Shown here: positions 35,925-45,257 of the stretch, in pieces | Layout of the letters: each line of letters starts with the position of its first letter | How positions within the stretch are numbered: position 1 is the first letter of the stretch | From: Flavobacteriaceae bacterium | Lineage (GTDB): Bacteria; Bacteroidota; Bacteroidia; Flavobacteriales; Flavobacteriaceae | Length of the DNA: 64,000 bases | Reading direction: 5' to 3' | Assembly: GCA_947446865.1 (NCBI GenBank) | Contig: CANFHX010000001.1 | Coordinates: forward strand, 158,098 to 222,097 | Notes under the pieces: generated by a model | The model's database searches: none | The model's input: only the letters and a program-made list of their open reading frames with translations | Told to the model about the DNA's origin: nothing | Made by a program: the position numbers and the translations under genes

Positions 35925-36554
35925 ATGAAAGACTTACTCCACCAAATTTACGGAACCATATTAGAAGAAGCGCTTCTTAACGAAATTGAAGAAGTTGCAA
36001 TACTTAAAGAATTCAAAGAAGGGGATGTGATTATTGACTTTGGGGATTATATAAAAAAGATGCCACTCCTACTTTCAGGAGCGATAAAAATTTTACGGGA
36101 AGATTTTGACGAAGGAGAACTACTTCTTTATTTTATTGAAAAAGGAGATACATGTTCCATGTCGATGGCATGCTGTCTTGGCGACACTAAAAGTGAAATA
36201 AGAGCCGTGGCAGAAACCGATGGTCAAGTAGTAATGATTCCGGTAATGTACATGGAATTATGGCTAGGAAAATACAAATCTTGGCGCAACTATGTCTTTG
36301 CTAGTTATAATAATCGTTTAAAGGAAATGCTGACTGCTATTGATAATTTAGCATTTAGGAACATGGATAAACGTTTGCTGAATTACCTTTTAGAAAAGGC
36401 TAAAATCAACACCACTAAAGAAATTAACACCACCCATCAAGAGATTGCTTACGATTTAAATACGTCTCGGGTAGTTATTTCTAGATTATTGAAAGCCCTA
36501 GAAAAAGAGGGGAGAATCAAACTACACCGCGCTCATATTGAACTTATAAGTTAA
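35925..36554 (+). CDS. Crp/Fnr family transcriptional regulator
   Basis: 209 residues. The cyclic-nucleotide-binding-like beta-roll is at about residues 20-120 (FKEGDVIIDFGDYIKKMPLLLSGAIKIL, YFIEKGDTCSMSMACCLG). The dimer helix is RLKEMLTAIDNLAFRNMDKRLLNYL, and the winged HTH is TTHQEIAYDLNTSRVVISRLLKALEKEGRIKL. Cys at 76 and in ACCLG are not in an Fnr iron-sulfur pattern, so the ligand is unknown. It stands 102 bp upstream of a TolC-adaptor-RND operon, and a GTAAC-N4-GTTAC palindrome lies in that gap, so it is likely to control the operon. Confidence 0.93.
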   Translation: MKDLLHQIYGTILEEALLNEIEEVAILKEFKEGDVIIDFGDYIKKMPLLLSGAIKILREDFDEGELLLYFIEKGDTCSMSMACCLGDTKSEIRAVAETDGQVVMIPVMYMELWLGKYKSWRNYVFASYNNRLKEMLTAIDNLAFRNMDKRLLNYLLEKAKINTTKEINTTHQEIAYDLNTSRVVISRLLKALEKEGRIKLHRAHIELIS

Positions 36555-36588: not shown

Positions 36589-36602
36589 GTAACACTTGTT
36601 AC
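36589..36602. promoter_or_regulatory. Putative Crp/Fnr operator of the efflux operon
   Basis: GTAACACTTGTTAC has perfect 5-bp half-sites GTAAC and GTTAC with a 4-bp spacer; the arms extend to 6 bp, GTAACA/TGTTAC. It lies in the gap downstream of the Crp/Fnr gene. Its centre (36595.5) is about 40 bp upstream of the start predicted from the TACTTTTG box, a classic class II activator position. The spacing and symmetry suit a Crp/Fnr dimer. Confidence 0.62.
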
Positions 36603-36624
36603 TGTAAAAGGAATTTTGCCAACT

Positions 36625-36632
36625 TACTTTTG
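36625..36632 (+). promoter_or_regulatory. -7 box of the efflux operon
   Basis: TACTTTTG fits TAnnTTTG, 24 bp upstream of the tolC-like ATG. No TTG is present at -33; the operator at about -40 could supply activation in its place. Confidence 0.6.
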
Positions 36633-36655
36633 CTTCATAATTTAGAAACTATCTT

Positions 36656-42476: not shown

Positions 42477-42782
42477 ATGAAATTACTAATAATAACCGCG
42501 ATTGAATCCTTTGAAAAGGAAATCAAAATAATGCTTAAAAAAGCAAACGTTACAACCTTTAGTTATAAAAAAGTAACTGGTTTTAGAGATATTTCGGGAG
42601 AAGCAATTGAAAATAATTGGTTTGCTACAGAAATTAATGAAACCGAATCTATTTTATTTTATGCCTTCGTGCCCAAAGAAAATGTGGATTTATGTTTTGA
42701 TTTTGTAACCGATTTTAACGCCAAACAGGAAACGTTATCACACATTCATGTGGCAGTTTTAAACATTGAAAAATCTAATTAA
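42477..42782 (+). CDS. Small PII-like (GlnB-fold) protein linked to the RND pump
   Basis: The ATG at 42477 (MKLLIITAIESFEKEIKIMLKKANVTTFSYKKVTGFRD) gives 101 residues; the longer ORF overlaps the pump gene out of frame. The strand-helix-strand order and the ferredoxin-like swapping pattern suit PII-like proteins that follow transporters. No T-loop tyrosine or ATP motif can be placed, so the ligand is unknown. It starts 4 bp after the pump stop, so it is translationally coupled to it and could tune the pump. Confidence 0.6.
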   Translation: MKLLIITAIESFEKEIKIMLKKANVTTFSYKKVTGFRDISGEAIENNWFATEINETESILFYAFVPKENVDLCFDFVTDFNAKQETLSHIHVAVLNIEKSN

Positions 42783-43040: not shown

Positions 43041-43077
43041 AAAACAGCAGTAAGCAAAAGTTTACTGCTGTTTTTTT
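43041..43077. terminator. Bidirectional terminator between efflux operon and HxlR gene
   Basis: AACAGCAGTAA, loop GCAAAAG, TTTACTGCTG then TTTTTTT. It lies between the DUF2892 gene (+) and the convergent HxlR gene (-). Confidence 0.87.
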
Positions 43078-43555
43078 ATGCTTTAATAGTTTTCTTTATT
43101 TTGAGATTTTCAACAACGGGCTCTTGAATTACATTCAAAAATTCAATATATTTTTCTCGTCTAGAATTAATAAATGCTTCTCGATCTTGAAATATTTCAG
43201 CCTTTATGGCCATTTGAGATTCATTTAAAATAGCTTCTGATAGCGATTCGATAGAAAACAAATACAATTCTACAAGAACTGGCAGCACACAAATTCCTTT
43301 GCGAGTAGCAATAAATGTGGCACTTTTTTTAGTGCCTTTGGGATTGAATTTAGAAATGAATCCTGCTTCCTCTAAATAAACCAATCGGTTGGTAAGAATG
43401 TTACTTGCGATTTTTTCTTTAGAATTTGAAAATTCTTTAAAAGTAGATTTTCGATGCAACAACATATCACGCAAAATCAACAACGACCATTTGTCGCCAA
43501 ATAAATCAACAGAAACGGCAATTGCGCAGGTAGATCTAAAATTATTGTTCGTCAT
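43076..43555 (-). CDS. HxlR family winged-helix regulator
   Basis: 159 residues. DLFGDKWSLLILRDMLLHRKSTFKEFSNSKEKIASNILTNRLVYLEEAGFISKF is the HxlR wHTH, including the characteristic GDKWSLLILR. HxlR-type regulators respond to reactive electrophiles, redox or small molecules; CAIAV holds one conserved-position Cys (Cys10). The C-terminal extension of about 60 residues is longer than in the minimal family. It is divergent from three NTF2-fold lipoprotein genes and probably controls them. Confidence 0.92.
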   Translation of the reverse strand: MTNNNFRSTCAIAVSVDLFGDKWSLLILRDMLLHRKSTFKEFSNSKEKIASNILTNRLVYLEEAGFISKFNPKGTKKSATFIATRKGICVLPVLVELYLFSIESLSEAILNESQMAIKAEIFQDREAFINSRREKYIEFLNVIQEPVVENLKIKKTIKA

Positions 43556-43661: not shown

Positions 43662-43691
43662 TTGCGATTTGAAAGTAATTTTATATGTTTG
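43662..43691 (+). promoter_or_regulatory. Promoter of the NTF2-fold lipoprotein operon
   Basis: TTG (43662-43664), 19 bp, TATGTTTG (43684-43691): an exact TTG-N19-TAnnTTTG match. It overlaps the ORF track's false start at 43685 and so supports ATG 43724 as the true start. It is about 70 bp from the HxlR gene's own -7 box, so a single HxlR site could act on both. Confidence 0.75.
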
Positions 43692-43723
43692 CAATCCTAT
43701 TAATCCTATTAACCAAATCTATT

Positions 43724-44194
43724 ATGAAAAAAATTATCCTAACTGCACTAGTTGCAACTACTCTATTTGCTTGCAAAGAAACTGCAACGCCAAAACCAGA
43801 ATTTGATTTAGCAAATGCTAAAAAAGAAATTGAAGCAGCCAATGAAACCTTAACTAATGCTTTAGCAAAAGGAGATTCTGCAACTGTTGGAAATTCCTAT
43901 ACAATGGATGCAAAATTTTTAGAGTCTAACATTCCAGCCGTTGTAGGACGTGCTAAAATCCAAAACCTTTGGGCTGGATATATCAATATGGGAGCCACCA
44001 AATTAAAATTAACCACTTTAGATGTTTGGGGAAATGAAAATTTAATTACCGAAGAAGGTACTTATGATTTCAAATCCAAAGAAGACAAGCCTGTAGGCAT
44101 TGGAAAATATATGGCAGTTTGGAAAAAAGAAGATGGAAAATGGAAACTTTATAGAGACATGGCAAATTCTGACTTACCAATATCAAAAGAATAA
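43724..44194 (+). CDS. NTF2-fold (SnoaL/DUF4440-like) lipoprotein, first of three
   Basis: 156 residues from the ATG at 43724. Lipobox LFAC (Cys17), then EFDLANAKKEIEAANETLTNALAKGDSATVGNSYTMDAKF and VWKKEDGKWKLYRDMANS, typical of the DUF4440/SnoaL-like cone fold. Such folds bind small hydrophobic ligands or act as small enzymes; no function is known here. The lipid anchor places it in the periplasm or on the outer membrane. First gene downstream of the divergent HxlR promoter. Confidence 0.85.
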   Translation: MKKIILTALVATTLFACKETATPKPEFDLANAKKEIEAANETLTNALAKGDSATVGNSYTMDAKFLESNIPAVVGRAKIQNLWAGYINMGATKLKLTTLDVWGNENLITEEGTYDFKSKEDKPVGIGKYMAVWKKEDGKWKLYRDMANSDLPISKE

Positions 44195-44237
44195 TTCAAT
44201 TATTAATTCAAATTCAATTAACCTAAATCAAACTAAA

Positions 44238-44765
44238 ATGAAAAAAACAATTGCCCTTATCGCCTTAACAGGCCTATTATTTATCTCTTGCAAGAAAGAG
44301 GAAACCGCTGCGCCAGTAGCAGCAACGAGTGAAATTCCTGCAACTGCAGATGGTTACACAACTCATGAATCTGAAAACATTGATTTAATAAAAAAATGTA
44401 ATTCTTGTTGGGAAAATGGTAATGTTGTAGAATATAAAGCGTATTATGCTGACGATGCAATTTTCCATGATAATGGAAAGCAAACAACCCTTGCGGAAAA
44501 TATTTCAAATAACGGGAATTTTCAAAAAATGGGAATTAAACCAACCATGAAATATGATGAAATTTGGGAAAGCATAGACAATAAAGCAAATAAAAAAGGT
44601 GTAAAAAATTACGTACTTGCTTATTGCACGAATACTTGGACCAAAGGAACTAAAACTTTAGAAGCCGTTGTGTTTCAAATAGACGCCATTAAAGATGGTA
44701 AAATTGTAGAAGAATGGAACGTTTATGACTCTGCAAAACTTATGGAATTAGTTAACTCAAAATAA
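44238..44765 (+). CDS. NTF2-fold (SnoaL-like) lipoprotein, second of three
   Basis: 175 residues from the ATG at 44238; the ORF track starts 138 bp earlier, inside the previous gene. Lipobox LFISC (Cys18) followed by a short Ala/Pro linker. The NTF2-like core is ENIDLIKKCNSCWENGNVVEYKAYYADDAIFHDNG ... EAVVFQIDAIKDGKIVEEWNVYD. Its signal peptide is nearly identical, at DNA level too, to that of the next gene (MKKTIALIALT), while the mature parts differ. Confidence 0.82.
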   Translation: MKKTIALIALTGLLFISCKKEETAAPVAATSEIPATADGYTTHESENIDLIKKCNSCWENGNVVEYKAYYADDAIFHDNGKQTTLAENISNNGNFQKMGIKPTMKYDEIWESIDNKANKKGVKNYVLAYCTNTWTKGTKTLEAVVFQIDAIKDGKIVEEWNVYDSAKLMELVNSK

Positions 44766-44771
44766 AAAAAC

Positions 44772-45257
44772 ATGAAAAAAACAATTGCCCTTATCGCATT
44801 AACCTGCTCTCTTTTTGTTGGATGCAAAAATGAAAGTGCCGATAAAGAAAAAATTGCTCAAGACAACATTAAATCCTATTCCAAAACTTGGGATTTAGTT
44901 ATTAATGAAGGAAAAGTAGATGTTTTAGACACTGCTTATGCTGCCGATATCGTATTACATACTGTCCCTGAAATTAAAGGTATAGCAAAATCTAAAGCCT
45001 ATTATGCAAATTTTGTTACTGGATTTTCTAACAGACAATTTATCGTAAAAGATATATTTGCTCAAGGAGATAAACTAACCAAATACTGGGAGTTCAAAGG
45101 AACACATACTGGAGATTTCATGGGAATTCCTGCAACAGGAAAAACCATTGATGTAGAAGGATGTACCATTGCCCGAATGGTAAACGGAAAAATTGTGGAA
45201 GAAAGAGATTTCATGGATAACATGGATTTCTTAAAACAATTAGGCTTAATGAAATAA
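44772..45257 (+). CDS. NTF2-fold (SnoaL, ester-cyclase-like) lipoprotein, third of three
   Basis: 161 residues, lipobox LFVGC (Cys18). The mature part matches the SnoaL polyketide-cyclase-like group: SYSKTWDLVINEGKVDVLDTAYAADIVLH, KGTHTGDFMGIPATGKTIDVEGCTIARMVNGKIVEERDFMD. The His/Asp pair used by cyclases is not certain. It begins 6 bp after the second lipoprotein and is followed by a terminator. Confidence 0.87.
   Translation: MKKTIALIALTCSLFVGCKNESADKEKIAQDNIKSYSKTWDLVINEGKVDVLDTAYAADIVLHTVPEIKGIAKSKAYYANFVTGFSNRQFIVKDIFAQGDKLTKYWEFKGTHTGDFMGIPATGKTIDVEGCTIARMVNGKIVEERDFMDNMDFLKQLGLMK

Follow-up and report, generated by a model that had tools for sequence, protein, structure and literature searches.

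The window (the whole 64,000-nucleotide stretch that was analysed) carries, between the gene of a Crp/Fnr-family regulator and a tolC-like gene, a palindrome, GTAACActTGTTAC, which on comparison with related genomes is a real, genus-wide predicted binding site for an activator. Our main reading, to which we give a probability of about 0.7, is that a cysteine-containing Crp/Fnr protein, acting as a Class II activator and responding to sulfane sulfur, would turn on the tolC-mfp-rnd-PII-like operon that follows.

In the proposed mechanism, the palindrome would be the operator of this activator, which may be the regulator encoded in the window, its 65% paralog on contig C4, or both. The dimer would sit centred at -41.5, just 5' of a weak CTG -33 element, and would recruit sigma-A RNA polymerase to the -7 box TACTTTTG, thereby switching on the operon. 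The same operator, at the same spacing, would also drive genes for persulfide dioxygenase (PDO)-rhodanese, rhodanese, SQR-like, TauE/SafE and thioredoxin proteins, and the likely switch would be that Cys77/Cys83, in what was once the cyclic-nucleotide pocket, become modified by persulfide or polysulfide. The site, its spacing, its conservation at the RND operon, the co-occurrence and covariation with the regulator and the content of the regulon are well supported by the comparison of sequences; that the protein activates and does not repress, that sulfur is its signal, how its cysteines react and what the pump carries we infer. Positions of the features are given in the table.

Table. Features of the regulator-RND locus, in coordinates of the window
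Feature	Position	Strand	Remarks
Crp/Fnr-family regulator, 209 aa	35925..36554	+	Pfam HTH_Crp_2 and cNMP_binding above cut-off
Regulator codons 77-84, Cys77-x5-Cys83-Cys84, proposed sensor thiols	36153..36176	+	cNMP-binding-like loop; putative sensing role
Regulator codon 183 (Val), recognition helix TSRVVISRLLK	36471..36473	+	Equivalent to CRP E181; position rule from PMC1274295
Palindrome GTAACActTGTTAC	36589..36602	+	Centred at -41.5, putative operator for the regulator family; present in 90/90 orthologous promoters
CTG, reduced -33 element directly joined to the palindrome	36602..36604	+	Spacer N20 to the -7 box
TACTTTTG, sigma-A -7 box (TAnnTTTG)	36625..36632	+	Exactly 22 nt past the palindrome, as in relatives
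Predicted transcription start	36637	+	From box at -12 to -5 (PMC9723704)
tolC-like outer membrane efflux protein, 437 aa	36656..37969	+	Pfam OEP
Periplasmic adaptor (membrane fusion protein), 361 aa	38015..39100	+	TIGR01730 RND_mfp above cut-off
RND permease, 1077 aa	39239..42472	+	Pfam ACR_tran; among solved structures, closest to the 6vej RND transporter
Small PII-like protein, probable fourth operon gene	42477..42782	+	Weak P-II match (E 0.12)

Genes behind the operator and the candidate signal

Further sites were sought as composites of the palindrome and the -7 box. The source genome (3.07 Mb, 95.1% complete) belongs to a large genus with promoters of the F. psychrophilum type. A pattern search of this genome with 3 mismatches gave 54/39 matches, versus 69/51 for the control, that is no enrichment, so that only near-perfect composites were trusted and used. 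A search of the window with 2 mismatches gave 46 matches versus 24 expected, mostly noise.

In the source genome, each composite that departs from the pattern by one base or none lies 5' of the RND operon or of a sulfur or thiol gene, or adjoins a YedE/YeeE pair. What follows them is the RND operon and the genes for PDO-rhodanese, rhodanese, an SQR-like protein and a thioredoxin-fold protein; one also lies 5' of an HMA-domain gene directly behind the YedE/YeeE sulfur-transport pair. In relatives, the next gene encoded PDO-rhodanese or rhodanese for 38 of 74 composites, a chosen and not a random set. Other genes in this position were those for cytochrome bd (CydA), TauE/SafE, SQR-like protein, peroxiredoxin, thioredoxin, cytochrome c, DUF983 and TolC, some of the names coming from reading of the sequences, not from a family search. 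The neighbourhoods of the regulator genes hold the same sulfur genes, and the V clade, to which the window regulator belongs, also contains regulators flanking sulfur genes. The second paralog of the source genome (65%; contig C4, L047:8213-8848), located beside TauE and PDO-rhodanese genes, has a Thr in place of Cys83 and keeps Cys84. Given that the same operator and spacing are found at sulfur genes, the RND pump would fall within a sulfide/sulfane-sulfur stress regulon, and its place is probably in the cellular response to sulfide and persulfide.

The regulator is a CRP/FNR superfamily protein by its two domains, one cNMP-binding-like and the other a Crp-type HTH at the C-terminus (PF00027 and PF13545 above cut-off), and its AlphaFold model matches CRP/FNR structures. 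FNR, an oxygen sensor of the Fe-S type, has a Cys cluster at the N-terminus and a central Cys; the cluster is absent from this regulator, whose cysteines are only at 77, 83 and 84, and a sequence-only reading of the window, which had reported no iron-sulfur Cys pattern, was right on this point. Cys77 is invariant in 32 of 32 family members and Cys83 is present in 30 of 32, so that the protein has two or more conserved cysteines, as persulfide sensors do; outlying homologs keep only Cys77. The cAMP pocket of CRP is made by Glu72/Arg82/Ser83. As judged by eye, the Cys77/Cys83 loop is homologous to the cAMP-binding loop of CRP, with E72 opposite Met79 of the regulator and R82 opposite Lys88. In the AlphaFold model, confidence is lowest in this loop, which has blocks at pLDDT 61-70.

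Given the sulfur regulon, Cys77/Cys83 and the lack of an FNR-type cluster, the most economical signal would be sulfane sulfur, sensed through cysteines, and we favour it with some reserve. The signal had at first been called unknown; the regulon now offers a candidate, since the other sites precede sulfide/persulfide genes, and it is one that we still infer. Alternatively, and with a lower but appreciable probability, site and regulator would be as described and the signal would be redox state, oxygen limitation or NO, the sulfur genes forming one part of a broader redox regulon. The composites found 5' of cytochrome bd oxidase, cytochrome c, peroxiredoxin and DUF983 genes agree with this, as does the fact that sensing of redox or of gases is common among Crp/Fnr proteins and that Cys pairs can form plain disulfides. 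However, PDO-rhodanese, rhodanese, TauE, YedE/YeeE and SQR-like genes dominate among the targets and neighbours and are the most widely shared, cytochrome bd and peroxiredoxin fit sulfide stress as well, and the regulator lacks the Cys cluster of FNR. A bolder form of the sulfane-sulfur reading, somewhat short of even odds, makes this CRP/FNR-fold persulfide sensor, its Cys pair lying in the old cyclic-nucleotide pocket, the main sulfane-sulfur activator of flavobacteria, driving a dedicated RND pump and its PII-like partner to remove reactive sulfur species or persulfidated metabolites.

The tolC promoter and its operon

At Class II promoters of E. coli, the CRP operator is centred at -41.5, beside a poor -33/-35 element. 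In the window, GTAACACTTGTTAC (36589-36602) lies in the 101-bp gap between the regulator and tolC genes, and the GTAACActTGTTAC palindrome is exact there, which bears out the earlier description of a Crp/Fnr-type palindrome in this gap. In Flavobacterium psychrophilum, mapped transcription starts put the sigma-A box TAnnTTTG between -12 and -5 (PMC9723704), hence a predicted +1 at 36637 and a palindrome centre at -41.5. Counted from this predicted start, the centre coincides with the position of Class II operators (about -41.5). The centre near -40 proposed from the sequence only fits a Class II position, and its value is slightly refined, to -41.5, by the published box position (PMC9723704). 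The same reading had seen no TTG at -33, which is literally true, but a partial CTG element is left: TG directly follows the palindrome (36603-36604) at -34/-33, and among 90 tolC promoters it does so in 70 (G 93%, T 78%), this conservation indicating that a reduced -33 element (CTG-N20) remains.

The spacing between palindrome and box is fixed. For the 44 palindromes located 5' of genes in loci around relatives of the regulator, a box with at most one mismatch was found at offset 22 in 34 cases, and at any other offset in at most three. Orthologs of tolC were present in 108 of 300 sampled congeneric genomes, and all of the 90 tolC promoters sampled had a palindrome matching in 7 or more of the 8 core bases and a box matching in 5 or more of 6, separated by exactly N22.

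The regulator gene adjoins the RND operon, or is near it, in several genomes (the source genome, G161, G190, G078, G270 and G082). In the best 30 tolC loci, the 5' gene was usually unrelated to the regulator, with palindrome and box still in place. As the tolC promoters mostly keep the site without an adjacent regulator, the site belongs to the promoter of the RND operon; it was rightly located in the regulator-tolC gap but is not tied to that gap, being kept in relatives with other 5' genes. Tandem palindromes, 17 or 22 bp apart, are found 5' of tolC in many relatives (e.g. L149, L151, L159, L161), which suggests that two dimers may be bound.

These data bear on the sign of the regulation. 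A repressor bound from -48 to -35, blocking the -33 region until the signal releases it, is an improbable alternative: the palindrome does abut the -33 element, and several persulfide sensors (CstR, SqrR) are repressors (PMC9774590), but a fixed N22 over dozens of unrelated promoters, together with a degenerate -33 element, fits Class II activation, whereas repression tolerates variable operator positions. We consider it very probable that the regulator activates the RND operon.

Outer membrane protein, adaptor and RND permease are encoded in one operon, as expected for a tripartite RND efflux system, and in 8 of 10 relatives checked the PII-like gene is directly 3' of rnd. Whether sulfur species are what this pump exports is doubtful, although they may be. 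An HxlR-type regulator gene (43076-43555), then SnoaL-like/DUF4440-domain genes (43685-45257), are found 3' of the RND operon.

Probable binding of the palindrome by the regulator family

The exact composite, GTRACnnnnGTYAC-N22-TAnnTTTG, was found in 245 of the 300 congeneric genomes, the reversed-pattern control being almost always zero, and the regulator family (E at most 1e-20) in 254. Where the family was present, 239 genomes had the composite and 15 did not; where no member was detected, 6 of 46 genomes carried the composite and 40 missed it (Fisher 8e-31 over 300 genomes, kinship ignored).

Residue 183 of the regulator, in the recognition helix and equivalent to E181 of CRP, is either Val or Glu. 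It was read directly in part of the genomes, the others being classed by similarity to two clades, and with these classes the tolC promoters had GTAAC half-sites in 57 of 58 Val-class genomes and one GTGAC half in 31 of 32 Glu-class genomes. The same trend was seen for all listed composites (65/7 versus 12/62, p 7e-21). In CRP/FNR proteins, loss of Glu181 goes with GTAAC motifs, having A instead of G in the half-site (PMC1274295), and the pairing of Val183 with GTAAC and of Glu183 with GTGAC agrees with this published correlation. Three Val/Glu changes suffice on the regulator tree, so that the independent weight of the covariation is below that of the raw counts.

Two genomes depart from the rule. 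G262 has a diverged Glu regulator and a GTAAC site. In G115, the single Val-class exception, the V-clade regulator carries Glu183 and a Glu-clade paralog is also present. This genome holds two near-identical composites (contig C52, 52324 and 71219), one with GTAAC and one with GTGAC, the second located 5' of tolC; they are possibly duplicated promoters read by the two types of regulator. In Glu-clade genomes, GTGAC is the upstream half at tolC, PDO genes mostly having it downstream, as GTCAC, and this difference of orientation is conserved (tolC promoters of L218-L270 versus PDO promoters).

From this co-occurrence and covariation, we consider it highly probable that this regulator family binds the palindrome, through one of the two paralogs or both. 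Another protein of the Crp/Fnr type that shares the consensus, for instance HcpR2, is a very improbable binder. The consensus GTAACnnnnGTTAC of HcpR2 in Bacteroides, clostridia and Thermotogales is identical (PMC1274295), but no hcp gene (PF03063) was found in the source genome, 95.1% complete, HcpR2 has Pro at position 181 where the window regulator has Val183, the recognition helices of the two remaining Crp/Fnr proteins that pass the Pfam cut-off are unrelated (ATESCIRLL and RVETVIRAF), and the composite is mostly lost where the regulator family is absent. The identification of the window regulator itself as HcpR was rejected, for its Val183 instead of Pro and for the lack of hcp in the genome. 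The initial proposal, a Class II Crp/Fnr site controlling an RND operon, is thus strongly supported, by N22 in 90/90 promoters, by the co-occurrence with the regulator and by the covariation of residue and half-site.

A scan of the window found GTAACnnnnGTTAC in its exact form only once, for 0.07 copies expected from base composition; with a TAnnTTTG box at N22, about 8e-5 are expected per window, and about 6e-8 in the regulator-tolC gap. The genome-wide search that had been advised gave three exact copies of GTAACAnnTGTTAC: the window site (36589-36602), one directly 5' of a PDO-rhodanese gene, about 1 kb from the 65% regulator paralog, and one on contig C39, which was set aside as an operator since it is located within a coding region. 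Copies of GTAACTGGAGTTAC and GTAACnGGAGTTAC in the source genome (C17:736-1934 and C30:33717-34204) are spaced by multiples of 237 bp, and are therefore probably repeat units and not operators. Short palindromes do arise randomly, and the C39 copy is intragenic, but that the window site is a chance feature or a terminator remnant of the intergenic gap is hardly credible against an expectation of about 6e-8 for palindrome and box in the gap and conservation in 90/90 orthologous promoters. The palindrome is almost certainly a functional site.

Comparison with known systems

The operator, the spacing and the core regulon of a flavobacterial regulator are predicted here across a genus, and this widespread regulator gains a candidate signal that can be tested. 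A multidrug-type RND pump is tentatively placed within the defence against sulfide and persulfide. If true, a CRP/FNR protein would join the known persulfide sensors, and these bacteria would be expected to change their efflux, and perhaps their tolerance to drugs, on exposure to sulfide or polysulfide.

The closest likeness in the operator is to the HcpR2 branch of the CRP/FNR superfamily (Rodionov 2005, PMC1274295), which has the consensus GTAACnnnnGTTAC. Both regulators are without Glu at CRP position 181 and have A for G in the half-site; HcpR2 has Pro there and controls hcp (PMC1274295), whereas the window regulator has Val, sulfur and RND targets, and Cys77/Cys83. With E. coli CRP at Class II promoters, the likeness is in the fold, the HTH and an operator at -41.5 beside a poor -33/-35 element. 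Here, in contrast, the box is the Bacteroidota sigma-A TAnnTTTG, and the cAMP contacts are probably replaced, with Cys in the loop (alignment by eye).

Known persulfide sensors are of the CsoR, ArsR and sigma-54 activator types (PMC9774590), and no published CRP/FNR persulfide sensor or flavobacterial report was found in the open-access literature searched. CstR, SqrR/BigR and FisR, of the CsoR, ArsR and sigma-54 families, resemble the present regulator in their control of PDO, SQR, rhodanese and TauE genes, which is predicted here, and in relying on two or more cysteines; the difference is the CRP/FNR fold in a predicted Class II position. For MexR/MarR, the likeness is that RND or multidrug genes respond to sulfane sulfur, there by MarR-family derepression, whereas a CRP/FNR activator is predicted here. 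TriC-like pumps and further tripartite RND systems (6vej) have the closest solved permease by sequence and the same tolC-mfp-rnd order, to which the window operon adds a PII-like fourth gene and the palindrome operator.
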